The notes under the pieces were generated by a model. The model did not search any database. It worked only from the letters and a program-made list of their open reading frames with translations, and was not told the origin of the DNA. The translations under genes were made by a program, and so were the position numbers. This document shows, piece after piece, positions 2,650 to 23,326 of a stretch of DNA of 34,658 nucleotides. The stretch comes from a virus, in the IMG/VR virus record IMGVR_UViG_3300027971_000129, positions 1 through 34,658 of that record. One strand, written 5' to 3'. Each line of letters begins with the position of its first letter. Within the stretch, counting starts at the first letter, position 1.

Positions 2650-2853
2650 ATGGAACTTAATGACATTATTAATCAAATTAGGCAAGAGCCTGAATTTATT
2701 AAAAGTTTACAAAGGCAAACTAATGGCCTTTATGATCGGGAGTTAGTCCTGATTTATCGATTGCTTATAGATAAGTATTCTGATCATTTGGACAAATTAA
2801 GTCCAAAGGAGGCAATCTATCTTTTTAAACAATTAAGCAAGATGTTGGCATGA
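2650..2853 (+). CDS. Hypothetical 67-residue protein
   Basis: A small helical protein starting MELNDIINQIRQEPEFIKSL with a leucine-rich C-terminal half. Its ATG lies four bases after the T-tract of the RNA terminator hairpin, so its expression may depend on read-through or on the alternative fold. Its stop overlaps the replication protein gene by 4 bases (ATGA), suggesting coupled translation and a role near replication, perhaps as an accessory factor. I do not recognise the family. Confidence 0.6.
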   Translation: MELNDIINQIRQEPEFIKSLQRQTNGLYDRELVLIYRLLIDKYSDHLDKLSPKEAIYLFKQLSKMLA

Positions 2854-3689
2854 ATGGGTATCAATTAACAGATGCCTGGTTTGAGTTTAGATTCCAGCAT
2901 CCTGAGAAAGTAAGTCATGCTCACACTGAACTTTATTTCTATTTGGTTTACCATTGGAACAAATTAAGCCAAAAGGAAAAAATTGGTTTGCCTTCATCAA
3001 TTACAATGGAGGCAACTGGAATCCGTAATTATAAGACCTATCGAAAATGCATAAAAGACCTTGCTCAATTTGGGTTCATTCGGATAATTTCAGAAGCAAT
3101 AAATCAGCATCAAGCTATGGTAGTTGCTTGGGGCAAAAATACCAAAGCAGATACTGAAGCACTAACTGAAGCACTAACCAAAGCACAGTCTGAAGCACTG
3201 ACCCACATAGTAGAACTAAGTAACTATAGAACTAAAGAACTAAAGAAAGGGAGTGGTGAAAAAAAAATTAAAGAGGTAAAGAAATTTATTGCTCCATCCA
3301 TTGATGAAGTAAGAAGCTATTTTGACGAGAAAGGATTTCCTTTAGACCTGGTTCAGCAAGTTTACAGTCATTATGCAGATGCTGATTGGACAAAAGCAAA
3401 TGGAGGGAAAGTTCTTGATTGGAAAAGGACTATAAGCAACAATTGGCAAGAAAAGTTTGACAGGCATAAGTCAAAACCTAATTATCAGAATGCAAATCAG
3501 AGTTATTATCCGCCAAAGCCTGAGAATGACCCAATCTTACTTAGACAGGAAGTTCATAGCAACTATGAGGATTATGTTAGGCATTGCTTGAAAGTAAATC
3601 ATCAGCCTGAAAAACCTAAATATCCTGAGCTTGTCCCACCGGACTTTGATCATATTGCGTTCATAAACCAAATTAAAGCTAACCTATGA
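2850..3689 (+). CDS. Replication initiator / replisome organiser-like protein
   Basis: A 279-residue protein. The N-terminal 100 residues ('LPSSITMEATGIRNYKTYRK', 'LAQFGFIRIIS') look like the winged-helix domain found in phage replication initiators. A low-complexity linker follows with three copies of the EALT motif (about residues 103-117). A C-terminal part contains 'SIDEVRSYFDEKGFPLDLVQ' and 'ADWTKANGGKVLDWKRTISN', a conserved tail in many phage replication proteins of Bacteroidota, similar in layout to DnaD/O-type loaders. It directly precedes the primase-helicase with a 4-base overlap, as expected for an initiator/loader. The precise mechanism is inference. Confidence 0.65.
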   Translation: MNGYQLTDAWFEFRFQHPEKVSHAHTELYFYLVYHWNKLSQKEKIGLPSSITMEATGIRNYKTYRKCIKDLAQFGFIRIISEAINQHQAMVVAWGKNTKADTEALTEALTKAQSEALTHIVELSNYRTKELKKGSGEKKIKEVKKFIAPSIDEVRSYFDEKGFPLDLVQQVYSHYADADWTKANGGKVLDWKRTISNNWQEKFDRHKSKPNYQNANQSYYPPKPENDPILLRQEVHSNYEDYVRHCLKVNHQPEKPKYPELVPPDFDHIAFINQIKANL

Positions 3690-6250: not shown

Positions 6251-6712
6251 ATGGCAGCACCAAAAGGAAATCAATGTTGGATGTTAAGGCTTAAGCATGG
6301 CCTTGATGGTAAGTTTAAAACTCCTGAGGAAATCCTTGAGAACTTTGAACAGTATGTTCAGTGGGCTGAGGAAAACCCTCTAATTGAGGTAGACTTTCGC
6401 GGTAAGGATGCAACTGAGGTTAGATTGCCTAAAAAAAGATTGCTTACAAAAGAAGGTTTTGCTCTTGCTTGTGGATTCTCCTGCTGGACTAAGCTTTCTG
6501 AATACAAGACCAAATCAAAAGATTTCGGTAGTGTCTTTACACGCATAGAGCAAGCGATTTATACAAGCAAGCTGGAAGGGGCTGCAAGTGGCCTATTCAA
6601 TCACAATATCATAGCAAGGGACTTGGGACTCATGAACCAGGAGCAAGTCACCATGCAGATGACAGAGGTCATCAGACCTACAAGTCCAAAAGAGGCTAAA
6701 GTAAGAGATTAA
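6251..6712 (+). CDS. terS: Terminase small subunit (gp3-like DNA-packaging protein)
   Basis: A 153-residue protein starting MAAPKGNQCWMLRLKHGLDG. This opening and the following 'FEQYVQWAEENPLIEVDF', 'RLLTKEGFALACGF' and 'SGLFNHNIIARDLGL' match the GP3_package family (phage P22 gp3-like small terminase). It recognises phage DNA and stimulates the large subunit during packaging. It lies directly before the large subunit with one base between stop and start, so the two are surely co-expressed. Confidence 0.85.
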   Translation: MAAPKGNQCWMLRLKHGLDGKFKTPEEILENFEQYVQWAEENPLIEVDFRGKDATEVRLPKKRLLTKEGFALACGFSCWTKLSEYKTKSKDFGSVFTRIEQAIYTSKLEGAASGLFNHNIIARDLGLMNQEQVTMQMTEVIRPTSPKEAKVRD

Positions 6713-6713
6713 C

Positions 6714-8048
6714 TTGGCAAAGATTGACTTGTCAAGTCCTGACCTTTGGCAGGAGAAATATCTTGATGCAGTAACAGACCCAAAGACCTACAACATCCTT
6801 TGGGGGGGTGCTGGAAGTGGCAAGAGTCAGACCATGATTCAGATGCTACTGGCTGAAATATGCGACCATAGGAACAATGAGTTTCAGACTTACTTTGTGA
6901 TTCGCAAAGTTGCCAGCACTCTGAGGAACTCAGTCTTTGCTGACTTCCAAAATAAGATAACTCAGTGGGGGTTGAATAAACTGTGCAGAGTTAAGACTGG
7001 ATACTTAGAGATTCAATCCGGTGGCAACAAGATTATATTTCTTGGCTGTGATGATCCTGAAAAACTAAAGTCATTAAGCCAGGCTAAATACATTTGGATT
7101 GAGGAGGCAACAGAATTAACTCTTGAAGACTTCACTCAGATAACATTAAGACTTCGGGGCAAGTCAGAACATCCAAAGAGATTCTTCTTGACCTTCAATC
7201 CGGTCTCTGATAGCCATTGGATTAAAAAGAGGTTCTTCGATGATGTGCCAGCAAAGGAGGCCAATGATGTGCTGAGACTTCATGGCACTTACTTGGATGC
7301 CTTAGACTTCTTAGATGACCAATACCCAATCCGGATGGAGGCACTAAAAGAAGTATCTCAGACTTACTATGAGGTTTATGCCTTGGGGCAGTGGGGCATT
7401 TGGGACAGGGAGTCGCTTTTTGCGACCTCATTTGACTTTAGCAAGCATGTCTACCAGGGCTATATCAAAGCCTCACCGATTCACAATCTTTATCTTGCCT
7501 TTGACTTCAATGTGACCAATACATGTGTGGTAAGCCAATACATCAAGAACTCATCCGAGGGCTTGTTTTATGCCACCATTAATGTCATCAAGGTTTACCG
7601 GGTTGGTGATCTTGCAGCTCTTTGCCAAACCATCAAGCAAGAGTTTCCTGATATGACTTACATCATCAATGGTGATGCCTCCGGAGCAAGTAGAAATGCC
7701 TTCACTCAGGATAACATCTCAGCTTATGCTCTAATCAAGAATTATCTTGGCATTGGTGACATGCAGATACAAGTGCCAAGGTCTAACCCAAGCCACATTG
7801 CAAGCAGGCTGGTCACAATCTTGACTCTTCAGAAGGCCAAGGTTCAGATTAGTGGCAAAAGGTGTGATGAGTTAGTAATTGATCTAAAGGAAGCAAAGGT
7901 GAGCAGGCAAGGAAGCCTTGACCCTTGGAAGAACAAGAATCCTGACAAGTCACATGCTTTAGATGCCTTTCGTTATTTTATTTTCTCTAATTTTGCAGAG
8001 ATAACCAGTAACTTCAATCTCGAAAAGTATGGCACAATGTTGCAATAA
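6714..8048 (+). CDS. terL: Terminase large subunit
   Basis: A 444-residue packaging motor ATPase/nuclease of the PBSX-like Terminase_3 type. Walker A is GGAGSGKS (31-38); Walker B YIWIEEA ends in E130-E131. The C-terminal RNase H-like nuclease shows D264 (FDFNVT), D321 (NGDASG) and D417 (HALDAF). The start is TTG at 6714: no ATG or GTG occurs before the Walker A motif in this frame that would retain a full N-terminus, and TTG follows the small-subunit stop after one base. The end overlaps the next gene by 20 bases. Confidence 0.95.
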   Translation: MAKIDLSSPDLWQEKYLDAVTDPKTYNILWGGAGSGKSQTMIQMLLAEICDHRNNEFQTYFVIRKVASTLRNSVFADFQNKITQWGLNKLCRVKTGYLEIQSGGNKIIFLGCDDPEKLKSLSQAKYIWIEEATELTLEDFTQITLRLRGKSEHPKRFFLTFNPVSDSHWIKKRFFDDVPAKEANDVLRLHGTYLDALDFLDDQYPIRMEALKEVSQTYYEVYALGQWGIWDRESLFATSFDFSKHVYQGYIKASPIHNLYLAFDFNVTNTCVVSQYIKNSSEGLFYATINVIKVYRVGDLAALCQTIKQEFPDMTYIINGDASGASRNAFTQDNISAYALIKNYLGIGDMQIQVPRSNPSHIASRLVTILTLQKAKVQISGKRCDELVIDLKEAKVSRQGSLDPWKNKNPDKSHALDAFRYFIFSNFAEITSNFNLEKYGTMLQ

Positions 8049-8442
8049 TTGTTTCAAGGCCTGTGAGCCTCTCAACAGTTGTCCTGATGCTTTATTGATT
8101 CTTGTGCCACCATCTTACCCCGAAGATTCAATCATCGTCAACATCAATAAGCCTGGGGTAAATGCTCGCATCAGCCAGCAGCTTGAGATTGATTACCTTG
8201 GCTACATTGAGATTGATTTGGCTGGCTGCCCTGATGGATTTTTCAATCCTTATGGTGGTCAATATGAATTAATGTTCATAAATCCCACCAATCAGAAGGT
8301 GTATGAGTTCACTGCTGTTGATGGCTTAACATACTCAACTATCTGCTTCTCATTTGCTCCAACCTATCGAAATGATGAGGGCATCAATGAGGTAATCCTA
8401 AACATATTCAACGATTTAATCCCTGACCCATATTATGTATGA
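8029..8442 (+). CDS. Hypothetical Cys-rich N-terminus protein, late region
   Basis: A 137-residue protein starting MAQCCNNCFKACEPLNSCPD, with six cysteines in the first 18 residues, followed by a beta-rich body. I do not recognise the family. The cysteine cluster could bind metal or form disulfides. Its start lies inside the end of terL and its stop overlaps the next gene by 4 bases, so it belongs to the same transcript. A minor virion protein is a guess from position. Confidence 0.6.
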   Translation: MAQCCNNCFKACEPLNSCPDALLILVPPSYPEDSIIVNINKPGVNARISQQLEIDYLGYIEIDLAGCPDGFFNPYGGQYELMFINPTNQKVYEFTAVDGLTYSTICFSFAPTYRNDEGINEVILNIFNDLIPDPYYV

Positions 8443-8834
8443 TGAACTTATTGCTTCCTGTGGTGGCAAGCGAAGAGGCTGCTGCATTATTGAACTCCCA
8501 CATGATTCTCAGCCTGCTGACATTGACTCTGATTGCTCTGATCAGTGCAGCTTTTTCCTTGTTCTTGGACTATCTGCTGGACGACCATCCGATTGGGCAG
8601 TGGTATCTGTTCCAAATTCAGAAATTGCCGACCTTGTGGGCCAAGCCACTTGGTGAGTGTCCCTATTGCTCAGGAGCATGGCAGTTCCTGGTTATCTCTT
8701 GTCTAATCTTTAACCAACCATTTTACTTATGTTCAATATTTTTAGGAGCAAACCATCTCTTCCTCCTCCTCCTGTCGTTAATGCAGAAACGGATGTTGTC
8801 AATCATCCGGAAAAACCAAGGTATTCGGGAGTAG
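8439..8834 (+). CDS. Putative membrane protein with CPYC motif
   Basis: A 131-residue hydrophobic protein with two predicted membrane regions (about 23-46 and 82-118) separated by a loop carrying GECPYCSGAWQ (C74, C77). A Cys-x-x-Cys beside a membrane helix, followed by Gly-Ala-Trp, is typical of a small family of phage and bacterial membrane proteins (DUF1360-like in pattern); its function is unknown. It overlaps the next gene (8729) by 106 bases in another frame, unusually long for this genome, so the C-terminal 35 residues should be treated with caution. The start at 8439 or 8442 is uncertain. Confidence 0.55.
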   Translation: MMNLLLPVVASEEAAALLNSHMILSLLTLTLIALISAAFSLFLDYLLDDHPIGQWYLFQIQKLPTLWAKPLGECPYCSGAWQFLVISCLIFNQPFYLCSIFLGANHLFLLLLSLMQKRMLSIIRKNQGIRE

Positions 8835-9478
8835 CCCCGAAAGACAGATGGGATCAGATAGAGTATGCCTTCACAAGTGGAGGTGTCAAATACTTTAAAT
8901 TCGTATCTGAGGTTAATGTCCCATTCCAAAGGGCAGTAGCTGCCAGGGATATCTTCACCGAGGAGTTATGGCAAATAAATCCTGACTTCCTAAGAGGCTG
9001 GAACAATGGGCTAATAAACCTTCTCATTGACAAGAAGAAGAAGGATGATAAGAAGCTTTATGAGGTGGGCATCATGGCCTCAAGGCTTAAGGAGCAGATG
9101 GAGATGTCTGTGAGCCTGCTTAGGCAGTTGAAACTTGCAACAGTTGTCTACTTTGATGAGCAAGAGAACCCACTTGACTACCAGTATCCATACAACAAGC
9201 AAAAGCTTGAGCATTGGATGAAGTCCAATGATGTAGAAGGTTTTTTTTTGAATCTGCCGGAGTACGCTTATCTTCCCTCTTTGACAGAATACAGCACGAA
9301 TTTTCCGACCTATTTGCAGGCAGAAACTCTCCAAAGCCTAAACAACCTGAAGCACATTATTGGACTTCAGTTGTCAGACAGCACAGACATCGATTTAGCG
9401 AAGTCCTTAGAATCGCAGCTGGAGATGCTCAAAGAGCTAAATTCTTGGTCGAAAGGCCAATCTATGAATACTATTTAA
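8729..9478 (+). CDS. Putative tail assembly chaperone, short (unshifted) product
   Basis: A 249-residue protein starting MFNIFRSKPSLPPPPVVNAE. It sits directly before the tape measure gene, the classical place of tail assembly chaperones (lambda G). The body (35-165) contains 'WDQIEYAFTSGGVKYFKFVS', 'AARDIFTEELWQINPDFL' and 'LLRQLKLATVVYFDE'. Codons 171-174 span a run of nine T (9241-9249). In the unshifted frame translation continues 75 residues to the stop at 9478; after a -1 slip it continues to 9526-9528. I infer the chaperone role from gene order and the slippery site, not from sequence identity. Confidence 0.65.
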   Translation: MFNIFRSKPSLPPPPVVNAETDVVNHPEKPRYSGVAPKDRWDQIEYAFTSGGVKYFKFVSEVNVPFQRAVAARDIFTEELWQINPDFLRGWNNGLINLLIDKKKKDDKKLYEVGIMASRLKEQMEMSVSLLRQLKLATVVYFDEQENPLDYQYPYNKQKLEHWMKSNDVEGFFLNLPEYAYLPSLTEYSTNFPTYLQAETLQSLNNLKHIIGLQLSDSTDIDLAKSLESQLEMLKELNSWSKGQSMNTI

Positions 9479-9528
9479 TCTATTCTACTTGGATTGCTGA
9501 TCAGAAGTCCAGGAGAAGTCAGAAGTAA
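8729..9528 (+). CDS. Putative tail assembly chaperone, -1 frameshifted product
   Basis: Translation of the first 173 codons, then a -1 slip within T9 (9241-9249), would continue in a frame that stays open for 93 codons. This gives a product of about 266 residues. The new C-terminus begins FESAGVRLSSLFDRIQHEF and ends with an aromatic-rich 'FLVERPIYEYYLIYSTWIAD' followed by a basic tail, with codon use like the rest of the phage (AGA arginine, GAA, CAA). The -1 frame has a TGA just 12 bases before the T-run, so it cannot be a separate ATG-started gene. The +1 frame stops immediately. A homopolymer sequencing error is the main alternative. Confidence 0.55.
9241..9249 (+). promoter_or_regulatory. 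Slippery T9 run, candidate -1 ribosomal frameshift site
   Basis: Read in the 8729 frame as GGT TTT TTT TTG, this contains the slippery heptamer T TTT TTT. Slipping back one base gives TTT TTT TTT GAA and a long open frame. This is the usual arrangement for tail assembly chaperone genes just upstream of the tape measure gene. Confidence 0.55.
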
Positions 9529-9566
9529 AATACTTTTTTTTTATGTGTTTCATTTAAGTTCAAAGA

Positions 9567-9590
9567 GCCTCCCAAATTGGGGGGCTTTTT
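9567..9590 (+). terminator. Intrinsic terminator after the chaperone gene
   Basis: GCCTCCC (9567-9573), loop AAATT, GGGGGGC (9579-9585), then five T. The stem is 7 bp with one G-U pair. Confidence 0.75.
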
Positions 9591-9594
9591 ATTG

Positions 9595-9602
9595 TAACTT
9601 TG
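9595..9602 (+). promoter_or_regulatory. Promoter before the tape measure gene
   Basis: TAACTTTG is an exact match to TAnnTTTG, placed 16 bases before the ATG at 9619 and just after a terminator. The -33 element is weak (TTG at 9577-9579, 15 bases upstream, inside the terminator). Confidence 0.45.
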
Positions 9603-9618
9603 CCACAAATAGAAAGAC

Positions 9619-12024
9619 ATGGCAACTATTTCAAATAATGATATTAAGATTAGATATGTTGTTGAGACATCCAATCTTGAAGCTGCTGCTCAAGCCTTTG
9701 ATAAGTTAAGCAATGAGGAGAAGCAGGCACTTGCTGACTTAAAGAAGTTTAACCAGGAGAGCCAAAGTACCAACAAGTCAATGGGCGAACTTGGTAGCAT
9801 TGCTGGCAAAGTTGGCGGTGTTCTTGGTGGTCTATTTGCTGTTAGTCAAATCAAACAGTTCGCTTCTGCTGTGGTTGATACAACTATCAAGTTTGAATCA
9901 ATGCGAAAGGCTATTGATTTTGCTTCAGGATCAATGGAAGCAGGGGCAAAGAACTTTGAATTCATTAGAGACTTAGCCAATAGACTTGGACTTGATTTAA
10001 GAGCAACTGCTGAAGGTTATAAGACCTTTGCATCAGCATCTAACTTAGCAGGCCAAAGTAGTCAAGAAACAAACAGACAGTTTGCAGCAGTTGCTAAGGC
10101 TGCTCAGGTAATGGGCTTATCTGCTGAGGACACTAAAGGAGCATTTTTAGCACTTGGACAAATGATGTCCAAAGGCAATGTGCAGGCTGAAGAACTTAGA
10201 GGCCAATTAGGAGAAAGGCTTGTTGGGGCATTTGGGATTGCTGCTAAAGCAATGGGAGTGACTACTGGAGAACTTAATAAGATGCTTCAGAAAGGTCAGG
10301 TACTTGCCTCTGACTTTTTACCTAAGTTCGCCACTGAACTTGAAAACACATTTGGAAAAGGCAATACTCAGGTTACTACACTTGCTGCAAGCCAAAACAG
10401 ATTTAATTCAAGCATTGATAGCTTAATCCTTGCCATAGGAAACAAGCTAAACCCATTCCTTAAAGGTGCTTATGATTTGGCTGCTGGCATTGCAAAACAA
10501 TTACAATCAGCTGCTGGAGGTGCAGAAGCAAAAAAGGCAACTGATGAACAGATTGCAGCTAAAAGAGTAGAATCTGAATTGGCTCAAAAGATTCTTGACA
10601 TAAGTATTAAACAAGGTATTTTTATAAGTAGGCAGTCAGCTGCAAGGTCTATGCTTGGGGAAGTAGACAAAAAGATTGAACAAGCAATGATTAGACAATC
10701 AGATGCAAGGATTGAAAGAGATAAGCGCAAACTTGATGCAGCAACTAAAGAAGTTGCCATTTTAAAAGAACAAGAAAGCATTTATGAAAAAATAGCCGGA
10801 GTAATTGTAAATACTCCTCCTCCTCCTCCAATTGAAGATGAGAAAGCAAAAGCCAAATTGTTAAAGCAAGAATATGATGATAGGCTTAAATTGCTTGAAT
10901 TGTTAAAGCAACAGCGCATACTTACCGGAGAGTTATTTGGTGATCCACTTGCTAAGATTGGAGCAGAGAAAGCATTTCAGGAGGCTAAATTGAGTTTACA
11001 AAAAGAATATGCAAAAAAAGGACTTGATATTACTCAGGCCGAAATAAAAGTTACCAATCTTGAAAGACTCAATGCAGAGCAAGACTTTATCCAGCAGGCA
11101 AAAGAACTCCGGATGGAGAACTATAAAGATATTCAAAAGACTGAGGAGGAAATAAGAAAGGAAAGGGCAAAGACAATGCAAGAGGGAGTCAAGAATGCTA
11201 TTGATGCCAATAAAGCAATTGAGGCTAATAATGCGGAGATGGTTCGGATTATGAAAAAAGGAGAGGAAGAAAAGCAAGAAGCAATCCAAAAGACATTTGA
11301 ATTAGCAACAACTATATCTGATGGAGCATTTGGACTTTATCAGGCCAATCTTAACAATGAAATGACCTTGCTCAACAAAAGATATGAAGAGGAAATTAGA
11401 CTTGCAGATGGTAATCAACAAAAGATTGACCAACTCAATCAACAAAAAGATGCAAAAGAAAAAGAAATTAGGACTAAACAATTCAAGGCAGAACAAGCTG
11501 CTGCTATTGCAAGAGTAATATTTGAAACTGCTTCTCAAGTTGCTAAATGGGCAACAAATCCTGTTACTGCTCCTTTAGCTGCTTTATCTTTAGCAGTCCA
11601 AGCTGCTCAGATTGGCTTTATATTGGCTCAACCAGTGCCTGAGTTTGCAGAAGGAACTAAGGGAAAAGCATTCAAAGGAGGTAAGGCCATGGTTGGAGAA
11701 AGAGGAGTTGAGAAAGTAATTACTGAATCAGGCAAAGTTTACTTTACTCCACCAACTGCTACCCTGGTTGATTTGCCTAAAGGCTCTCAGGTAATTCCTA
11801 ACCATGCTCTAAGCAAGCAAGAGATATATTGGGGCAGTATGCAATCAGGAAGACAGGCAAGCAGTGGCAGTCCTGTTGTGGGCGAAATAAGGGAACTTGG
11901 AAGCATACTAAAAGGCTTGCCAATTACTCAACTTAACATGGATGAAAGAGGCTTTGAGAAGTTCATCAGAACACCAAGAAGGACAACTAAGATTCTTAAT
12001 AATAGGTTTAGAACTGAGAATTAA
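9619..12024 (+). CDS. Tail tape measure protein
   Basis: An 801-residue protein that sets tail length and is later ejected with DNA. The N-terminal region carries 'SIAGKVGGVLGGLFAVSQIK', then the TMP_3-type tape measure domain (about 90-290) with 'AEGYKTFASASNLAG', 'ALGQMMSKGNVQAEELRGQL' and 'GAFGIAAKAMGVTTGELNKM'. A long charged coiled coil follows (about 310-620, interrupted by a PPPPPP stretch near residue 400), then an Ala-rich hydrophobic segment ('AAIARVIFETASQVAKWATN'). At roughly 1.5 angstroms per residue this length predicts a tail of about 120 nm, so a siphovirus- or myovirus-like long tail; no sheath gene is visible, favouring siphovirus. Confidence 0.9.
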   Translation: MATISNNDIKIRYVVETSNLEAAAQAFDKLSNEEKQALADLKKFNQESQSTNKSMGELGSIAGKVGGVLGGLFAVSQIKQFASAVVDTTIKFESMRKAIDFASGSMEAGAKNFEFIRDLANRLGLDLRATAEGYKTFASASNLAGQSSQETNRQFAAVAKAAQVMGLSAEDTKGAFLALGQMMSKGNVQAEELRGQLGERLVGAFGIAAKAMGVTTGELNKMLQKGQVLASDFLPKFATELENTFGKGNTQVTTLAASQNRFNSSIDSLILAIGNKLNPFLKGAYDLAAGIAKQLQSAAGGAEAKKATDEQIAAKRVESELAQKILDISIKQGIFISRQSAARSMLGEVDKKIEQAMIRQSDARIERDKRKLDAATKEVAILKEQESIYEKIAGVIVNTPPPPPIEDEKAKAKLLKQEYDDRLKLLELLKQQRILTGELFGDPLAKIGAEKAFQEAKLSLQKEYAKKGLDITQAEIKVTNLERLNAEQDFIQQAKELRMENYKDIQKTEEEIRKERAKTMQEGVKNAIDANKAIEANNAEMVRIMKKGEEEKQEAIQKTFELATTISDGAFGLYQANLNNEMTLLNKRYEEEIRLADGNQQKIDQLNQQKDAKEKEIRTKQFKAEQAAAIARVIFETASQVAKWATNPVTAPLAALSLAVQAAQIGFILAQPVPEFAEGTKGKAFKGGKAMVGERGVEKVITESGKVYFTPPTATLVDLPKGSQVIPNHALSKQEIYWGSMQSGRQASSGSPVVGEIRELGSILKGLPITQLNMDERGFEKFIRTPRRTTKILNNRFRTEN

Positions 12025-12048
12025 TGTTTGGTTTAGATAGAGGAAAGA

Positions 12049-12075
12049 GGGGTAGCATTGCTATCCCTTTTTTTT
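12049..12075 (+). terminator. Intrinsic terminator after the tape measure gene
   Basis: GGGGTAGC (12049-12056), loop ATT, GCTATCCC (12060-12067), then T8. The 8-bp stem has one G-U pair. Confidence 0.8.
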
Positions 12076-12086
12076 ATCTATTTTTG
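12058..12086 (+). promoter_or_regulatory. Promoter with very short leader before the 12091 gene
   Basis: TATTTTTG (12079-12086) matches TAnnTTTG. TTG (12058-12060) is 18 bases upstream, inside the preceding terminator stem. The ATG begins only 4 bases after the -7 element, so the transcript should be leaderless or nearly so. Confidence 0.5.
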
Positions 12087-12090
12087 AACC

Positions 12091-14379
12091 ATGGCAGGAT
12101 GGAATTTTTTTCTCAATGGTATTGAGGTTGAAGAACCAATAGGCTGGGATGCCATAGAGTTCACAGCCATCAGGATGGAGTCTCATGGGATAGATCAGCC
12201 TTTCTCCACAGAGATGAGGTTCTATGAGAGAGGAGCAAAGCTTATCAAGGCTCTTTATGACCAATATTTCATCAATGCCGAAATCACCATACAAATTACT
12301 TCAGATGTTGGCTATGGTGGTGTGCCTTATGAGTTCAATGGCATGCTTAACCTTGCCATCTACCAGGAGCATAATGTATGCGACACAGATAGCTGGGAGA
12401 TAACCGTTGGCATTATTGATGATAACTTTAGGGAGCAGTTTAAGGCTCGTCAAGATGTAGAGATTGACCTTACAGCCATCAAAGACTTAAATGGTGATTC
12501 TATTGCTGCTCTAACAGAAAAGGAAATTAGGCTACACAGGCAGGACTTATACCTTCAGGCCAATGGTAAGAACTTAGCTGATAGTAGCACCTATTTGACA
12601 AGAGGCCCATCAGGGCCAAGTGCTAATAGATATGCAATTGTGCCTACTTATTGGCAGCAAAAGGACTTCACGGAAAATTATGGGAGTGTATTTGACACAA
12701 ATGTCATATTTGTTGTAGGCGATGGAAATCTACCTGGCTCACCTATTTTTAAAAATAATCAAAGTAATAGTAGAACTTTAAGTTATGAAATAACTATTGA
12801 ATTTACTCTTACAAACAATGATTTAACAGGGCCAATAGATGTTGAATTTGATTTAGTTCAATTTAATGGAAACATTCCTCAATCATATCCTCCTAGCTTA
12901 GTTCTTTACAATACTACATTAGCTGCAGGTGCTTCAGTAACTATTAGCAACACCTACACAGGATCATTTACAATTGCTACAGGCATTACACTTGCGCTTC
13001 TTTTTGCTCAAACATCATTTAGCACAGTTACTGCTGCTGTTACCGTTGATATAGAAAAAGGCTACACCATAAACCTTAACGAGATTAATTCAGGAGAATA
13101 TGCCTCAATAGCCAACTGCTTAACGATTGAGCAATGGCTTAAGAGGGCAATCTACATGATGACAGGAAGCAATAATAAGTTGCTTTCAGATGTTTTTAAT
13201 GAGGATGAAGGAGGGTGTTATTGGAACAATGCTTTGACCAATGGGCTTAGAATTAGGCAAGCAGATAACCAGGATGACCTTGGCGCACTTAAGACAACTT
13301 GGAAAAAAACCTTTGAGGCACTTGATAGAATCTTCTGCCTTGGATGGGCATTTGAATGGACAGGAACAGAATGGAAAATAAGAGTTGAGCCAAGAGAATA
13401 CTTCTATCAGAACTCAATCAGCCAAACCTTTACAAATGTTGGAGAGGTAACGACAATGGCTAAGGTTGATATGTTAGCTAATGCCATCCAGCTTGGCTAT
13501 GATGAGAAGTGGAAGAATATTCAACTATCAGGAACATTTGCCATCCATACTGATCGCAATTACTTTGTCAATAACAGAGCAATGGCTGAAAACTCATCAG
13601 GCAAGTTGGACATCAGGACAGAGATAATTGCTGAGGGCTATGCCATTGAATTTAGCAGAAGACTATCAGACATAAGTTTTGGGGGTGCAACGTCAGATAG
13701 GCCTAATGATTATGAAACTTTTATCATTTGGCTAAATAGGCAAACCATTGAATTAGAAGATGTGGAAGACACTACTTTTAATTTATTTCAAGAGACAGGT
13801 GCAGTTACATTTCTTGCCGGCACTGTGAGCCTGCCAAGCAACTTGATTACCTTTTCAAGTAGTCCTTTGAATAATCTTTACAATATCTTTCACACACCTG
13901 TTCGCATTGCATGCAGATGGTGGAAGGTTTTAGGGATGCACACTTATGGCCTGACTAATCCAAGGCTTCAGTTTCAGGTAGGTGAATATCAAACAGCCTA
14001 TGAGAGTGCAATATCTGACGCAGATGAGCCATGCATTCAGATACCTTCTGAAGTTACCATTGCGGAGAACTCAGACATCTATGCAGACATCATTGTTCCT
14101 GAAGCTGCTGAATATTTATTTAAGCCTATCGGGGTTGAATTTAGTTATCCACAAAGTCTATGCGATTTCTTAACTTTGTCTCAAGATGAGCAATATCGGA
14201 AAGTCAGGCTCACTTCAGGCTCTTTGGACATTCAAGGCTTTATCATGGAGGCCACCAATCAGCCGGAGGATGCTTCCGGAGGTACGACAAAGTTTACACT
14301 TCTTCAGGCCAATCAACTTGCAGCAACAGGCGCAGCATTTGATGAAGGCTTTGATGATGGTTATCAAATAGGTGATTAA
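12091..14379 (+). CDS. Tail-tip / baseplate structural protein candidate
   Basis: A 762-residue protein starting MAGWNFFLNGIEVEEPIGWD, directly after the tape measure gene, where distal tail and tail-hub proteins usually lie. The N-terminal 160 residues ('SHGIDQPFSTEMRFYERGAK', 'DSWEITVGIIDDNFREQFKA') look like a distal-tail beta domain. Residues about 204-330 form a Thr/Ser-rich beta domain ('SVTISNTYTGSFTIATGITL') encoded by visibly more A/T-rich DNA than its flanks. The C-terminal half resumes the earlier composition. I cannot assign a family. It ends with TAATGG overlapping the next start. Confidence 0.55.
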   Translation: MAGWNFFLNGIEVEEPIGWDAIEFTAIRMESHGIDQPFSTEMRFYERGAKLIKALYDQYFINAEITIQITSDVGYGGVPYEFNGMLNLAIYQEHNVCDTDSWEITVGIIDDNFREQFKARQDVEIDLTAIKDLNGDSIAALTEKEIRLHRQDLYLQANGKNLADSSTYLTRGPSGPSANRYAIVPTYWQQKDFTENYGSVFDTNVIFVVGDGNLPGSPIFKNNQSNSRTLSYEITIEFTLTNNDLTGPIDVEFDLVQFNGNIPQSYPPSLVLYNTTLAAGASVTISNTYTGSFTIATGITLALLFAQTSFSTVTAAVTVDIEKGYTINLNEINSGEYASIANCLTIEQWLKRAIYMMTGSNNKLLSDVFNEDEGGCYWNNALTNGLRIRQADNQDDLGALKTTWKKTFEALDRIFCLGWAFEWTGTEWKIRVEPREYFYQNSISQTFTNVGEVTTMAKVDMLANAIQLGYDEKWKNIQLSGTFAIHTDRNYFVNNRAMAENSSGKLDIRTEIIAEGYAIEFSRRLSDISFGGATSDRPNDYETFIIWLNRQTIELEDVEDTTFNLFQETGAVTFLAGTVSLPSNLITFSSSPLNNLYNIFHTPVRIACRWWKVLGMHTYGLTNPRLQFQVGEYQTAYESAISDADEPCIQIPSEVTIAENSDIYADIIVPEAAEYLFKPIGVEFSYPQSLCDFLTLSQDEQYRKVRLTSGSLDIQGFIMEATNQPEDASGGTTKFTLLQANQLAATGAAFDEGFDDGYQIGD

Positions 14380-16346
14380 TGGCAAATTTAAACAGAGCCA
14401 ATCTAATAACTGAGAGTGCAACACTCTTCCCTGACAACAACACGCAAGAGATTTCTCCGGCTGACTTGAGGTCTTGGCTTGCTGATGGCACTGCAAGCTT
14501 TGTGACTCAGAAGGACAAATCAACTCTTGAGAATGCAATCTTTGAGGCTAAAGGCACAACCTTAGCATCAGCAGCAACAGTTGATCTTAACACTGCAACA
14601 GGAAATTACTTACAGATATCAGGAACTGCAACAATCAATTCATTTGGCACTTGTCCATCAGGAGCAAGATTCATCCTAATGTTTCAAGGTATTGCAACCT
14701 TGACTTACAATGCCACAAGCTTAATTATTCCTGGTCTTGCTAATAAGACAACGGCAGCAGGAGATTGTTGCATGATTGTCTCTGAAGGCTCAGGCAATTG
14801 GAGGATTGTTGGATACTTTGCAATTAGTGGAGGAGGAGGTGGAGGAGGTTCAGTTACTGCGGTAACAGGCACTGCTCCAATTGCATCAAGTGGAGGAACT
14901 GCTCCTGACATAAGCATTCCACAGGCTAATGGCTCAACTGATGGCTTTTTAGATAGTGCAGATTGGACTACATTTAATGGCAAGCAGGATACTCTCAGTG
15001 CAGGAACAGGCATAAGCATTATAAGCAATGTAGTAGCCAATACTGCACCCGATCAAACTGTTTCTTTAGCTTCAGGAACTGGAATAAATGTTACCGGAAC
15101 TTATCCTTCATTTACAATTGCCAACACTGCTCCATCAAGTGGAGGAACTGTAACAACTACAGGCACTCCTTCATCCGGTCAAATCACAAAGTTTAGCGGA
15201 GCAACAAGCATTACAAATGCTACTGCCGGGGCAGGAGGTGATTATGTAGCACCTGGTGCAGCAACTGGTTCAGGTCTTACAATGGCAACATCAAGATTGC
15301 TTGGAAGGACAACGGCATCAACAGGAGCAATTGAGGAGATAAGTTTAACTACTACTGGCACAAGTGGTGCAGCAACTTTAACAGGAGGTAATCTCAATAT
15401 CCCACAATATAGTGGAGGAGGTGGAAGTGGAACAGTAAACTCAGGCACATCAACAAGGCTTGCTTATTATGCAAGTACTGGCACGGCAGTGTCAGAAACA
15501 ACAAACATGGCTATTGATAATACCAATGGCAGAATGAATGTTGGAGGCACTGGAGTTCCTACCGCAAGAGTTCAAGCTGCTGCTGGTACTGCTGCTAATG
15601 GTCAGGTTTTACTTACTCCTTCTGTTTTAGGTAGTGCAGGACTTACTGCCACAACTGATGGCATGATGTGGTATGATACCACAAGCAATAACTCATCACT
15701 TTACTTGAGGAAGTTGTATGCTGCTTCCACATCAATCCTTACTAAGTTTATTACTTTAGATAGAAATCCTGACTTAGCGACAAGTGGTTCAGGAATAATT
15801 CAGGCAGATGCTAATGGAACATTGAGCAAAGGTGCAGACCTTACTGCCTTGGGAATATTTGCCCAAACATCAACAGTTACTGTTGCCAATACTGCAACTT
15901 CCATTACCTTAATTGGGACAGTTACCGGAGTAACAACACTTCCTGCTAATTTCTTTGCAATAGGTAAGACAATAAAAATATTTGTATCAGGAACTTACAA
16001 TCAAGCAAGTGGTAGTCAAGATTGTGCATTAAAATTGACTATTGGTGGGGTAGCAGTTGGAACAATAACTTTTAATCACAATGGAGGTTTAACGACTGTT
16101 TATTATGATGCAGAGTTTACATTAACTTGTAGAACCGCAGGAGCATCAGGAACTCTTCAATTTATGGGAATCGGTAGACTAAATCATACTGGAAGTAGTT
16201 TAAACAACTATTTTCAGGTAAGCAGTACCTCTGCATCAATCAATACCACTGGAACACTTGCCATTGATTTGCAAGCCGATTGGGTAACGGCAGATCCTTC
16301 CAATTCAATTACTGCATCAATTCTTACTGCAACCTATTTAAACTAA
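14379..16346 (+). CDS. Tail fibre-like protein with glycine-rich hinges
   Basis: A 655-residue protein of low complexity, rich in Gly, Ser, Thr and Ala. The N-terminus ('LITESATLFPDNNTQEISPA', 'WLADGTASFVTQKDKSTLEN') is typical of fibre attachment regions. A run of seven glycines (about residues 150-156) leads into repeated 'TAPIASSGGTAPDISIPQ' and 'SADWTTFNGKQDTLSAGTGI' units like those in many tail fibres. A second SGGGGSG hinge lies near residue 347. The C-terminal third is a beta-rich domain that probably carries receptor-binding or trimerisation function. It is followed with a 1-base overlap by a likely partner gene. Confidence 0.7.
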   Translation: MANLNRANLITESATLFPDNNTQEISPADLRSWLADGTASFVTQKDKSTLENAIFEAKGTTLASAATVDLNTATGNYLQISGTATINSFGTCPSGARFILMFQGIATLTYNATSLIIPGLANKTTAAGDCCMIVSEGSGNWRIVGYFAISGGGGGGGSVTAVTGTAPIASSGGTAPDISIPQANGSTDGFLDSADWTTFNGKQDTLSAGTGISIISNVVANTAPDQTVSLASGTGINVTGTYPSFTIANTAPSSGGTVTTTGTPSSGQITKFSGATSITNATAGAGGDYVAPGAATGSGLTMATSRLLGRTTASTGAIEEISLTTTGTSGAATLTGGNLNIPQYSGGGGSGTVNSGTSTRLAYYASTGTAVSETTNMAIDNTNGRMNVGGTGVPTARVQAAAGTAANGQVLLTPSVLGSAGLTATTDGMMWYDTTSNNSSLYLRKLYAASTSILTKFITLDRNPDLATSGSGIIQADANGTLSKGADLTALGIFAQTSTVTVANTATSITLIGTVTGVTTLPANFFAIGKTIKIFVSGTYNQASGSQDCALKLTIGGVAVGTITFNHNGGLTTVYYDAEFTLTCRTAGASGTLQFMGIGRLNHTGSSLNNYFQVSSTSASINTTGTLAIDLQADWVTADPSNSITASILTATYLN

Positions 16347-17212
16347 TGCCAGTAACAACAATATATGGTGATGGGACAAGAATAGTTGGTGATGCCAATG
16401 CCATAGAGCAGACTTTGCATCCAACTGTAATGGACTATATAAACATAATGCAGTCTGCAAGTGGTGGTAATTATGCTATGTCTGTGAATGAGATTGATGC
16501 AGTCAATAACATGGTTCAATCATTAGTAGCTAATGGCTTATGGAACAAGATTCAAGTTATTTATCCATTTATAGGGAATAGTGCTAATGCCATGAAGTTT
16601 AATTTGAAGGATGCATCAACTACAAACACATTTAATATAACATTTAATGGAACAGATTTTACATTTTCAACTGCTAATGGTATGCGAAAAACTTTAGCGA
16701 CTAATGGTAGTTGGGCAAATACAAATTATATTCCAAACACTCATCAGACAACCAATGACACTCATATGTCGGTGTATATGGGTACAACACAATCAGGAAC
16801 TTCCGTACCATTAGGCTGTTTACAAGAAATTTCTATTGCTTGGTTTGCACTTAGTAGTGCAAATACTCCACCTTTACAGGCATATTACACTATTCAATCA
16901 CCTGCTTCACCCGCACAGTATAGTTATCCTGGTGGGGCTAATACTGGTTTTTTATTGGGGACAAGAAGTGGAAATAATAATAAAATTTTTTTTAATGGTA
17001 TTTTAGGAGGTACATCAACAAACTCTGGAACTAACAAAGCAAATCTTGCAGCAACAATAGGAGTTTATAATACAACTTTACAAGGGAGGCTTTTTCCATG
17101 TACTCAAGCTTTAAGAATTATAACAATAGGAGCAGGGTTGTCTGATGTAGAAGCTAAAGCATTTAGTACCATTGTTCAGGCTTATCAAACAAAATTAGGA
17201 AGACAAGTTTAA
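16346..17212 (+). CDS. Tail-associated protein, possible LamG-like receptor-binding protein
   Basis: A 288-residue protein when started at the ATG overlapping the fibre stop (16346), a better choice than an in-frame Met at 16280 inside the fibre gene. Contents such as 'MKFNLKDASTTNTFNITFNG', 'LQEISIAWFALSSANTPPLQ' and the C-terminal 'SDVEAKAFSTIVQAYQTKLG' resemble concanavalin/LamG-like domains found at the tips of phage fibres. It is more A/T-rich than nearby genes, as expected for an adsorption module that is often exchanged. Function is inferred from position and composition. Confidence 0.55.
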   Translation: MPVTTIYGDGTRIVGDANAIEQTLHPTVMDYINIMQSASGGNYAMSVNEIDAVNNMVQSLVANGLWNKIQVIYPFIGNSANAMKFNLKDASTTNTFNITFNGTDFTFSTANGMRKTLATNGSWANTNYIPNTHQTTNDTHMSVYMGTTQSGTSVPLGCLQEISIAWFALSSANTPPLQAYYTIQSPASPAQYSYPGGANTGFLLGTRSGNNNKIFFNGILGGTSTNSGTNKANLAATIGVYNTTLQGRLFPCTQALRIITIGAGLSDVEAKAFSTIVQAYQTKLGRQV

Positions 17213-17216
17213 AATT

Positions 17217-17606
17217 ATGAATCAAAAAGAATATCAGGGTTATACACTCTATCAAATCAGTAACCATCCTACCATTTCTGAAATGGAAAGATGGGTAAGT
17301 TGGGCAGGATTAGAAATCCAAACGGATGCAAACTATGGATTTTACATCCGGATGAAATATCGGACTTGGGCATTCATAAGTGATGTTGAGATTCCGGTAA
17401 GCATTAGTGCAGCCTATGTGAACTTGACTGCTGATAATTCAACTTGTGTAAATTCATCGGGTCAAATAGTTGAATGCGGAAGTCCTGATTCAATGGGTGA
17501 ATATGATTTTTATATTGCCATGATGAATGAGCCAGTAATCATTCTTGATTTCGTAACAAGCAAAATAACTTGGGCAGATTCTGAAGGCAGATTTAACACT
17601 TTTTAA
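17217..17606 (+). CDS. Hypothetical tail-region protein, 129 residues
   Basis: Starts MNQKEYQGYTLYQISNHPTI and contains beta-rich stretches with aromatic residues ('WVSWAGLEIQTDANYGFYIR'). No domain is recognised. It lies 4 bases after the previous gene and ends immediately before the next start, so it belongs to the tail operon. A small virion component or chaperone is possible. Confidence 0.6.
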   Translation: MNQKEYQGYTLYQISNHPTISEMERWVSWAGLEIQTDANYGFYIRMKYRTWAFISDVEIPVSISAAYVNLTADNSTCVNSSGQIVECGSPDSMGEYDFYIAMMNEPVIILDFVTSKITWADSEGRFNTF

Positions 17607-19742
17607 ATGCCTAATTCATTCTACCGATTTGAGCCTGCTTGGAATGCAGGGTTCTATCCTGACAACCAAATCACTTCCAATCTGCTTAATGAATTAGCAG
17701 TGACTGTTGATGCTTGGTTGCCTGGTTTCTTTCCGGGAAAGACCTTAAGTCAATTGGTTGCAGGAGTTAGAGGTCAGATGGAGTCATTTAATATCTCTCC
17801 TTACTTTGGAGGCTTTACATTGACCTATCAAACAATATTTGATATTCCGAATTATGAGTACAACATTAATATCAGGAATGCTGACTTAAGTGAAACAGAC
17901 AATGGTCAAGTTGTGACTATCAATGGCTTTTTTAATTTCACTACTAAGGAGGTTTTAAATGCCAATGTCATAGCCTTTACTCCCGGCAGTTACTCAGGCA
18001 GTTTTGACTTTTCAGCCATTCCAGTTGAGGCAGAGGTTAATCGGGCATTGCAGATTGTTGATCAGAATGGTTCAGCCTTCTTCCCAATGACTTACTCTTA
18101 TGATTCCATTACGGGCATTGCCACAAGTGGACTTGCAAGAGGCAAGAACTGGCAGCTTGATTCTTCAGGCAATCCTACAAGGCTTCCTGCTGACACATTG
18201 CCTAAGCAGAATGCAAGGACATTTAATCTTGCAGTTCAAACTGCTGAGGATAGGTATTGCATCAGCTTAATGGAGAAGGTTATTAACTTCAGCTTTACAG
18301 AAACTGATGAGACATTGATTCAGGCTTACTTCAATACATTTACTGTTCCTGATGGTTGGACTGATTCATTTACAATTGTATCAGGTACTTACATAAGGGT
18401 TTTCTGCTTGTTGTATAGAGATGACAGAAGCTTGTTAATGATTGGCAGGCTTGATACGAATTGGCTCTGGCAGAGGTTTGTTAGTGATACCACTTCAGAT
18501 GATTCTTACTTTAATGGATATGCATCAACGACTCCATTGCCTTACTTGCCATTATTAAGCTATCAGTGGCTTTATGATGAGTGGTATGATATGGAGTTTG
18601 TGGAGTTCAATTCGGGGTGCTATGTGAGTCCTGAGTTCTATGCTATGCCTGCAATACCAGGAGACAATTGGCAATTTAATGTGCCATCTCATTCAGGAAA
18701 TCTCACAGGGCTTACAACAGCATCAGTAGGCTTGTTCACTCAAGATGGACAATTCATTCAGCAAGTAGGTGAGGCTGATTTAGCAGTTGTAACTTTAACT
18801 GAATATGGAATGTATGCCAATTTTGGAGTGAGAGGTACTTACCAAGATTGGTTTGATGCAGTTTATAATCCAGTTTATACAGTTAATTTTCAAGCAACTG
18901 ATTGCAATGGAGATTTAATTGGAGATATACTTGCCACAATCCCTGAAAATGGGATTACCACTGATGACTTTAATGAGTTTAAATCAGTAGTTGAAGGGCT
19001 TGCATTTCCTGATTGGCTTTCTGTTGTAGTTGAGTTAGATGATACAGGTAGGGTTGAATTTTATTTCACTTTTACCAATGCTCCTGTTTGTTTCTGTTCA
19101 ATTACCGCATGGACTTATTATGAAGGATCGGGAGAAACTTTATATTTTATTAAGCCAGCAATTTTTGAAAATCAAGGTAGGCCAACTCAATTCCAAGCCA
19201 CAACATTAATCCCTGCTGTTGCTACTGGTTGCTATCGTTTAGGCTTATATGCCGAAACAGAGGAAGGCTTTTACCTTTACTCATTAAGCAATATCATCAA
19301 CATTGATGCCTCTGATTGTTTTTCTACAATGCTTGAATTTTGGGCAAATAGCAATTCAATTGCTCAAGGCTTTGAGTACTTTAATGATTGGAAGCAAAGA
19401 GTAAGGCTTGGAATTAATGGAGGAGGAGCAAAACCTGTAATTGAGGAAAATCTATACAGGCAATCGAATGGAGTTCACAGAAGGCCACAAAACAAGCAAG
19501 ATTTATCATTAGATTTGCATACTGATTTTATTGATGAACAGACTCAGCTTGCGCTTGTTGATGCCACTCGACATCCGTACTTAGTTTGGAACAATAAGTC
19601 AATCTTTGTGAAGGGAGATATTGATGTTGCCACGATTCAAGATTTCACGACACAGTCATCATTTGAAACCTTGGCTCAGGTCAAGTTTTCGGCACTTCTT
19701 CAGGGCTTTCAGCCCAAAAACTCAAGTTGTTTAACTTGCTAA
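17607..19742 (+). CDS. Large tail/virion protein, unknown
   Basis: A 711-residue protein starting MPNSFYRFEPAWNAGFYPDN, dominated by beta strands with many Tyr, Phe and Asn residues, as in virion adsorption proteins. The C-terminus ('NGVHRRPQNKQDLSLDLHTD', 'VDATRHPYLVWNNKSIFVKG') is more charged and may form the attachment part. Starts directly at the stop of the upstream gene. No family is recognised. Placement between fibre genes and the tail tube/portal candidates suggests a tail protein. Confidence 0.6.
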   Translation: MPNSFYRFEPAWNAGFYPDNQITSNLLNELAVTVDAWLPGFFPGKTLSQLVAGVRGQMESFNISPYFGGFTLTYQTIFDIPNYEYNINIRNADLSETDNGQVVTINGFFNFTTKEVLNANVIAFTPGSYSGSFDFSAIPVEAEVNRALQIVDQNGSAFFPMTYSYDSITGIATSGLARGKNWQLDSSGNPTRLPADTLPKQNARTFNLAVQTAEDRYCISLMEKVINFSFTETDETLIQAYFNTFTVPDGWTDSFTIVSGTYIRVFCLLYRDDRSLLMIGRLDTNWLWQRFVSDTTSDDSYFNGYASTTPLPYLPLLSYQWLYDEWYDMEFVEFNSGCYVSPEFYAMPAIPGDNWQFNVPSHSGNLTGLTTASVGLFTQDGQFIQQVGEADLAVVTLTEYGMYANFGVRGTYQDWFDAVYNPVYTVNFQATDCNGDLIGDILATIPENGITTDDFNEFKSVVEGLAFPDWLSVVVELDDTGRVEFYFTFTNAPVCFCSITAWTYYEGSGETLYFIKPAIFENQGRPTQFQATTLIPAVATGCYRLGLYAETEEGFYLYSLSNIINIDASDCFSTMLEFWANSNSIAQGFEYFNDWKQRVRLGINGGGAKPVIEENLYRQSNGVHRRPQNKQDLSLDLHTDFIDEQTQLALVDATRHPYLVWNNKSIFVKGDIDVATIQDFTTQSSFETLAQVKFSALLQGFQPKNSSCLTC

Positions 19743-19746
19743 CAAA

Positions 19747-20640
19747 ATGTCAATATTTTCATTAACCTGTCCGGATGTAGGATGCTATCAGAACTTTCTG
19801 TGTGATCCTGAGTTCCAAAATAAAATCATTGCAGTGGCCTATGTAAAGAAGTCATCTGCTCTTACTTCCGTTGAAAAGGCAACTGCTGATTCATGGATTG
19901 CTGCTCTCTATGAGAGATACCTTGATGGTGAGGGATATTTAGTCCTTAACACATCAGGAGAGAAGCCTAAGCCTGATACTGCAACAACAGCAGGCCGAGG
20001 CATGCAGAATACTAAGGCTCTTGCTAAGACTCATACCCTAACTTACCAGGATATGCAGGGAGTTGTACAAAATAATGTACAATTCTACAATGATATCCTT
20101 GGTTCAAGTCAGAATTACGACTTTTACTATTTTACTCCAGGCAGAATTTGGGATGCTTCAGGATACTATGTGACTGTAATTGGTGATCCAATCATCACAG
20201 CAGAACTGAACACCTATCAGATGGCTGAGGTGACTGTGAACTGGGTTTCTAAGGTCAATCCTTTGCCTTATGAGTTTGACACTGATACATTCCTTGAGGG
20301 CTTATATTACATCATCAGCTTCACAGGTTCAGGAAACACTTACATTGGCAACACTATTACAAGTGGATGTGGAGCAACAGAATCAACCACTTTTTCTGCT
20401 GTGTTAAACATTGGCGCAATTTCAGGCGCACCTGCTCAAAGTTGGTCAATTGATGAGGTTAGCGGAAGTGAGCCTATTGCTGATATTGCTCTTGGAATTG
20501 ATGCAACAACTGGACTTTTAACTTGGACTCCTGGCGGTGGGGCTTATGATGGCACATACATTTTCACGGTTACTGTAACCAATGAGTATGGTTGTGTATT
20601 TGGTCAGGAGACTATCACACTTAATGTTCTTTGCGACTAA
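19747..20640 (+). CDS. Virion protein with C-terminal Ig-like domain (tail tube candidate)
   Basis: A 297-residue protein. The first 200 residues ('TTAGRGMQNTKALAKTHTLT', 'AELNTYQMAEVTVNWVSKVN') show the mixed beta pattern seen in tail tube proteins, but this is weak. The last 90 residues form a putative Ig-like/cadherin-like domain, with 'IDATTGLLTWTPGGGAYDGT' and 'YIFTVTVTNEYGC' matching the He_PIG style repeat. C-terminal Ig-like domains are frequent on major tail and capsid proteins and are thought to hold the virion to surface glycans. It precedes the portal gene by 11 bases. Confidence 0.45.
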   Translation: MSIFSLTCPDVGCYQNFLCDPEFQNKIIAVAYVKKSSALTSVEKATADSWIAALYERYLDGEGYLVLNTSGEKPKPDTATTAGRGMQNTKALAKTHTLTYQDMQGVVQNNVQFYNDILGSSQNYDFYYFTPGRIWDASGYYVTVIGDPIITAELNTYQMAEVTVNWVSKVNPLPYEFDTDTFLEGLYYIISFTGSGNTYIGNTITSGCGATESTTFSAVLNIGAISGAPAQSWSIDEVSGSEPIADIALGIDATTGLLTWTPGGGAYDGTYIFTVTVTNEYGCVFGQETITLNVLCD

Positions 20641-20651
20641 GTAAATAAGGG

Positions 20652-22457: not shown

Positions 22458-23326
22458 TGCCTACAGAGAAGCAGTTAGCCATCATCAGGAAAATCCAGCA
22501 AATTCAGTTGGATATTGAGAATGGGATGGCTGATGCTTTGCCTAAAGTTTTTAAGACTCTTAGCAATGAAGTAATTGATTTAGCCTCTGAATTAAGTCTT
22601 AATCCTAAAGATAGGGCTAAGACTTTAAGAGAGATGGTTAAGCTAAAGAAAGACATTGCTGATACAATAGTCAATAATGCAGCATATCAGACAGAGGTTG
22701 TGGCTGTCATTAATGGCTACAAGGCACTTGCTGAAGCATCTAATGAATATCTAAGTCTTATTCTCGATGACTTTTCCCCGAAAACTGAACTTTATAAAGC
22801 CATTCTTGAGACCAATATTGAACTTACTAAGGATGCTCTTATAGGTGGTGGAATCAGAAACAATTTTGGAAATGCCATTCAAGAAGTCCTAAAGAGCAAC
22901 ATTGCCGGAGTAAGCAATAGGGCTGAACTTAACAAAACTCTTAGGCAGTTCATTGAAGGCACACCGGAGGATTTGCCTTTTTTAAATAGATACATCAAGC
23001 AGACAACTAATGACTCTGTAATGGCCTTCAATGCAGAGTACATTCAGACAGTAAGTGAGGACTTAGGTGTAGAGTATTATCTCTATGCCGGAACAATAAT
23101 TGAGGACACAAGACCATTCTGCTCTGCAAGGACAGGCAGATTCTTTACTACTGATCAGGTAAGGGATTGGGCTAACCTAAAAGGATGGCAAGGGAGAATG
23201 TCAGGGACTAATGCAAACACAATCTTTATCTATCGAGGTGGCTATAATTGCAGGCATCAACTTTGGCCTGTGAGCAAAGAGCAATATGAGTCAGCCAAGG
23301 AAGCTGGCAGAACCGGAGTCAAGTAA
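22457..23326 (+). CDS. Phage head morphogenesis protein (Mu gpF-like)
   Basis: A 289-residue minor head protein. The C-terminal part shows the family signature: EDTRPFC (216-222), a Phe/Trp-rich spacer ('RTGRFFTTDQVRDWANLKGW') and RGGYNCRH (260-267). This region is conserved in the phage Mu F-like family (PF04233), probably acting in capsid assembly and in some relatives linked to toxins. It is normally encoded next to the portal gene, as here with a 1-base overlap. The N-terminal 200 residues are helical. Confidence 0.85.
   Translation: MPTEKQLAIIRKIQQIQLDIENGMADALPKVFKTLSNEVIDLASELSLNPKDRAKTLREMVKLKKDIADTIVNNAAYQTEVVAVINGYKALAEASNEYLSLILDDFSPKTELYKAILETNIELTKDALIGGGIRNNFGNAIQEVLKSNIAGVSNRAELNKTLRQFIEGTPEDLPFLNRYIKQTTNDSVMAFNAEYIQTVSEDLGVEYYLYAGTIIEDTRPFCSARTGRFFTTDQVRDWANLKGWQGRMSGTNANTIFIYRGGYNCRHQLWPVSKEQYESAKEAGRTGVK

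Follow-up and report, generated by a model that had tools for sequence, protein, structure and literature searches.

Organisation of the locus

The window analysed here is the whole virus record, with a length of 34,658 bases. On its plus strand, an ORF at 8729-9478 (gene 8729) encodes a product of 249 residues and crosses a run of nine T's (T9, 9241-9249), the proposed slip site, in the reading GGT TTT TTT TTG. The region of the run holds U_UUU_UUU (9241-9247) and, together with G9250, U_UUU_UUG (9244-9250), both of which are 0-frame heptamers of the form X_XXY_YYZ. An N-terminal part of 173 residues (8729-9247, plus strand), defined by the ORF and its translation, would be common to both products. 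It is followed by a 0-frame tail (9248-9478, plus strand) of 76 residues and a stop, with a net charge of -5, and by a -1 frame tail (9247-9528, plus strand) of 93 residues and a stop, with a net charge of +6. A -1 slip in T9 results in a fused product of 266 residues, ending at the TAA at 9526-9528. The -1 frame is closed on its 5' side by a TGA (9229-9231) and has no start codon of its own in the window, and the +1 frame is shut right after the run by a TGA at 9249-9251 (plus strand). Between the slip site and the 0-frame stop the two frames overlap by approximately 228 nt (approximately 76 codons), so that the shift exchanges the final third of the protein, an acidic tail for a basic one, instead of extending it. 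On the position and reading of the run, the startless frame of 93 codons, the immediate stop in the +1 frame and the similar length of the two endings (249 versus 266 residues), our results agree with a preliminary description of this DNA.

That description had also placed the gene just before the tape measure gene, correctly, as the latter starts at 9619 (9619-12024, plus strand; PF20155, E = 7e-31; PHROG tape measure, E = 1.5e-56). Gene 8729 directly precedes it, and this order was kept in every relative with enough sequence. An intrinsic terminator (9562-9590, plus strand) lies between the two genes. Its stem consists of 13 pairs, 5 of them with compensatory changes, in 14 relatives. Downstream of the terminator is TAACTTTG (9595-9602, plus strand), a likely promoter box of the tape measure gene, which is kept as TAnCTTTG in nearly all aligned relatives and resembles the Bacteroidetes -7 promoter element (TAnnTTTG). 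Boxes resembling TAnnTTTG were not enriched over the whole window, and as a promoter of the tape measure gene the box is suggestive only. A second terminator-like hairpin is present at 12041-12075, 3' of the tape measure gene. Given the terminator and promoter-like box before it and the terminator-like hairpin after it, the tape measure gene may form its own transcription unit. The tape measure protein is similar to those of Polaribacter and Leeuwenhoekiella phages; this similarity and the -7-like box suggest a Bacteroidetes host.

Upstream of gene 8729, a terminase gene is located just before three ORFs (8029-8442, 8435-8656 and 8439-8834) without a recognisable family, and no major tail protein was recognised there. 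ORFs 8435-8656 and 8439-8834 (plus strand) overlap in different frames; 82 of 82 relatives keep both of them open, and purifying selection acts on each (z = 5.6 and 10.2, respectively; 1.7 for the third-frame control). ORF 8439-8834 is membrane-protein-like, contains a CPYCSGAW motif and extends over the initial 106 nt of gene 8729. With these doubly selected ORFs, the region 8029-9528 is a nest of overlapping genes. The order of modules at 6251-23326 (plus strand) is unusual, with the terminase subunits just before the putative tail chaperone gene and the tape measure gene, and portal-like (20652-22457) and protease-like (22457-23326) genes at the far end. Elsewhere in the window, a run of nine A's (3259-3267, plus strand) is located inside ORF 2850-3689, which has weak replication-initiation matches, and a Mu Gam-like end protection protein (32894-33397, minus strand; PHROG, E = 2e-31) is encoded near the end of the record.

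Conservation of the T run

Five scans of IMG/VR gave 272 loci with the shared N-terminal part. Since many of these were the same contig fetched repeatedly, the count used is that of the 99 distinct sequences, with distinctness judged over 200 bases before and 240 bases after the slip site. In these relatives the shared part was between 99% and 72% identical in amino acids to that of the window, and the changes in it fell mostly on third codon positions.

Across the IMG/VR relatives GGTTTTTTTTTGA was invariant, whereas codons for other invariant Gly and Phe residues varied freely. Within the shared part, the invariant Gly at 8879 was encoded by GGA (32), GGT (26), GGC (2) and GGG (1), and the invariant Phe at 8894 by TTT (31) and TTC (30); codons for invariant Leu residues varied too. 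At the slip site, GGT, TTT and TTT were the sole codons used in 61 distinct sequences. Only 9 of the 95 invariant residues with degenerate codons used a single codon, and 3 of these 9 make up the slip site. GGTTTTTTTTTG was found in all 99 distinct relatives, with A as the next base in every one, and the comparison of homologous phages that had been proposed to check the run gave a length of nine in 99 of 99 and never eight or ten. The TGA at 9249-9251 was conserved to the same extent (99/99), which could be a by-product of constraint on the amino acids of the two other frames. Judged from these alignments, T9 is under selection as DNA. The wobble base of the Gly codon, T9241, is fixed, though it is silent in frame 0 and lies upstream of the shift. 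Such fixation suggests a requirement for the 5' end of the run, in which case the P2-type heptamer U_UUU_UUG at 9244-9250 would be insufficient alone. The residues encoded in both frames could be what keeps the last two T's in place, and the data therefore fit a requirement for either seven or nine T's.

Almost all relatives share the position of the 0-frame stop; in one clade it lies two codons further on. The -1 tail has a length of 90-95 codons among complete relative sequences. The exception is L024/L096 (IMGVR_UViG_3300007169_001207), which has a 1-nt insertion approximately 30 nt after T9. In this sequence the shared part continues directly into what is elsewhere the -1 tail, and the 0-frame tail of the other relatives is open in a different frame. 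The insertion may be an error in a single metagenome contig or a re-phased variant; the changed arrangement counts against the explanation that we prefer. No relatives of the fused protein were found among the INPHARED phage records, and a prophage search of genome contigs returned 52 pattern matches with no relative among them.

Selection and codon use in the two downstream frames

Parsimony mapping on a tree built from the distinct overlaps gave 490 substitution events. For each change, the expectation was derived from the opportunities in the same ancestor, at sites that had the same base and codon position and belonged to the same class with respect to the other frame. In the -1 frame, given frame 0, 217 changes were synonymous where 149 were expected (z = 11.8), and 3 created a stop where 27.8 were expected. 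In frame 0, given the -1 frame, 268 were synonymous against 218 expected (z = 8.3), with 2 stops against 15.5. The controls gave z = -0.6 for the +1 frame within the overlap and z = 1.4 for the -1 frame in the single-frame region upstream, where 118 stops were found and 111 expected. The z values treat changes as independent, and the contrast with the controls is large. Changes at third positions of frame 0 amounted to 8.9 per codon upstream versus 3.7 per codon in the overlap, where the first position is surpassed by the second, which corresponds to the third position of the -1 frame. By these counts both downstream frames are coding and under purifying selection, for which a test had been proposed in the preliminary description, and because both are under selection, both tails are taken to be functional. 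There was no position in the -1 frame at which more than half of the distinct relatives had ATG, GTG or TTG. The -1 frame is thus most simply entered from the shared part.

Codon use had been described as phage-like in the -1 frame, which holds in part: codon preference of the -1 tail in the overlap was 0.05-0.06, compared to 0.21-0.34 for real genes (two scales). The 0-frame tail was clearly atypical, with a synonymous codon preference of -0.23 versus 0.21 (sd 0.11) for real genes, and in 98 of 98 relatives the -1 tail had the higher preference of the two. Of the two, the 0-frame tail may be the more recent, having arisen by overprinting. This is a hint only, because the -1 frame of real genes itself averages 0.11. 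As a possible origin, an ordinary G/GT gene may have lost its early 0-frame stop.

Explanations for the two-frame arrangement

Chance as the origin of the arrangement at T9 was rejected on the invariance among the 99 relatives and the dual constraint. Homopolymers are error-prone, and in L024/L096 a single frame does lead from the shared part to the -1 tail, as an ordinary single-frame gene broken by a sequencing or assembly error would. However, the identical T9 occurs in contigs from many metagenomes and both frames 3' of it are under selection, which makes such an error extremely improbable. Phase variation, in which T9 would be a mutable tract that toggles the gene between two DNA forms, would suit a homopolymer that lies within coding sequence and has a usable frame to one side of it. 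It is refuted at the level of assembled contigs by the constant run length in all distinct relatives, and we give it as little credence as the error. Hardly more probable is an internal start, by which the -1 frame would be made as a separate small protein without a shift. The -1 frame is indeed selected as a protein and an unusual start codon is compatible with the sequence, but no conventional start is shared by a majority of the relatives, and this reading gives no account of the invariant T9. We are therefore highly confident of two-frame expression at T9. We infer that both proteins are made, and their ratio likewise: most of the message of gene 8729 would be decoded to the 249-residue protein, and a fraction of decoding, shifted -1 at T9, would yield the 266-residue protein, which begins with the same 173 residues and has a different tail.

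The preliminary description had proposed a programmed -1 frameshift. That the -1 frame is entered at the T run by a programmed event is strongly supported; the ribosomal part is in doubt, as an invariant T9 is also the classical motif for transcriptional slippage in bacteria and no ribosomal stimulator was found. Transcriptional slippage would place the event in RNA polymerase: addition of one U at T9 would give a U10 mRNA that reads the -1 tail, and a U8 mRNA would stop at the TGA right after the run, yielding only the shared part. Under this mechanism the same two proteins would have the same role, at a ratio set by RNA polymerase. Such sites have been described as conserved A/T homopolymers of some nine bases where the frames join (PMC1088944, PMC3711429), a description that T9 matches. 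Selection against slippage appears at nine A/T in many bacterial genomes, and in Shigella a U added at a U run yields a longer MxiE (PMC1088944); slippage motifs are often homopolymers of at least 8 (PMC3711429). U_UUU_UUU is also far less shift-prone than A_AAA_AAG in E. coli (PMC5009743). In our data, the fixed 5' end of the T run points the same way, as does the lack of a ribosomal stimulator: no downstream stem-loop or pseudoknot was found (consensus -1.67 kcal/mol over 100 columns; window z-scores of at least 0). Such a stimulator is frequent but not obligatory in -1 ribosomal frameshifting. A hairpin upstream of T9 was rejected as a stimulator of slippage, being present only in part of the window's own clade. 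A/T runs of at least 8 are depleted in the coding sequence of these phages (10 versus 27.8 expected), which is compatible with slippage at such lengths and also with mutational causes, and the counts come from related sequences; for runs of at least 9 the depletion is weak (4 versus 7.0 expected). Against slippage by the polymerase, the tail chaperone frameshifts in the cited literature are all treated as ribosomal, and amino-acid constraint in both frames can account for the last two T's, so that the full T9 may not be required. Transcriptional slippage is thus a serious, if somewhat less probable, alternative. Because tail chaperone genes are known to use ribosomal shifts, we lean slightly towards a ribosomal slip, at little better than even odds. 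It would take place by tandem tRNA slippage on U_UUU_UUU (9241-9247) and perhaps also on U_UUU_UUG (9244-9250).

A probable role in tail assembly

A -1 shift before the tape measure gene is a signature of tail assembly chaperones, whose frameshifts are widely conserved among long-tailed phages; the chaperones bind the tape measure protein and the extended form binds the tail tube protein (PMC5009743). Gene 8729 has the position, and it has a slip-prone site joined to a startless -1 frame, conserved in the relatives, as in genes of the G/GT type. From position and recoding, the pair probably acts as a tail assembly chaperone pair of this kind. The shared part would bind the tape measure protein and one of the tails would recruit another tail component. 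Taken together, two-frame expression at T9 and a chaperone-like role, whichever machine slips, have a probability of roughly 0.73.

The identification as "the G/GT pair" in the preliminary description is in this way supported by the neighbouring tape measure gene; no similarity in sequence or fold and no recognisable major tail protein upstream were found, and the long, doubly selected overlap is unlike that of lambda G/GT. The distance from slip to stop is short in genes of the G/GT type and 228 nt here; published sets average 26 and 36 nt from the shift to the first-frame stop (PMC10885494). Sequence searches of Pfam, PHROGs and the PDB with the shared part, both tails and the relatives gave no convincing match of any kind, known tail assembly chaperones included; such proteins diverge widely. 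AlphaFold modelled the 249-residue product with a pLDDT of 41 and the shared part without a confident fold. Models of the -1 tail reached a pLDDT of 80.6 in the best of five and 51-62 in the others, and its predicted structure had no Foldseek match. The terminator and promoter-like box between gene 8729 and the tape measure gene also count against a chaperone role.

Comparison with known systems

A close comparison is with gpE/gpE+E' of phage P2. As with gene 8729, the gene precedes the tape measure gene (T), and the -1 shift takes place in GGT TTT TTG, a run of six T's, where the present gene has nine in GGT TTT TTT TTG. The first frame of P2 stops 20 nt past the shift, in contrast to 228 nt and two long tails here, and its products show no sequence similarity to those of gene 8729. 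Phage lambda gpG/gpGT likewise has a shared N-terminal part, a -1 shift and the tape measure gene next to it. Its frames overlap by 18 nt, whereas here approximately 228 nt are read twice and the last third of the protein is replaced, and the major tail protein V lies directly upstream where this phage has a small unrecognised membrane-like protein. For slippage by RNA polymerase, Shigella mxiE (a U run) and Thermus dnaX (nine A's) have a conserved A/T homopolymer comparable to T9, and an added U leads to a longer product in mxiE (PMC1088944). Those are cellular or plasmid genes; the present one is a phage gene with both tails selected over a long overlap, and its slip by RNA polymerase is hypothetical.

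Polaribacter phage P12002L and Leeuwenhoekiella phage Arctus_1, both phages of Bacteroidetes, have hypothetical genes directly before a related tape measure gene, annotated as single ORFs of 208/209 aa that overlap it. The shared part looked alike by eye, but hhalign gave no profile similarity to it for either gene, and the genes are not detectably related. For the -1 tail, the comparison covered the Leeuwenhoekiella gene only and gave no profile similarity either.

In the usual picture, the frameshift of a tail chaperone gene extends a short protein now and then. What is new here in comparison with the known shifts is the length of the overlap, which is selected in both frames, and the invariance of T9: approximately 76 codons are read in two frames, both kept by selection across a large family of uncultivated phages. 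The more specific combination, a tail chaperone pair produced by RNA polymerase slippage at T9, with doubly encoded tails of which the 0-frame one was overprinted, is doubtful at present. The locus is nevertheless a natural system in which to ask whether phages use transcriptional slippage for their tail chaperones, what function the short form's own ending has and how so long a dual-coding overlap originates. In routine annotation of these phages the 266-residue protein would go unnoticed.
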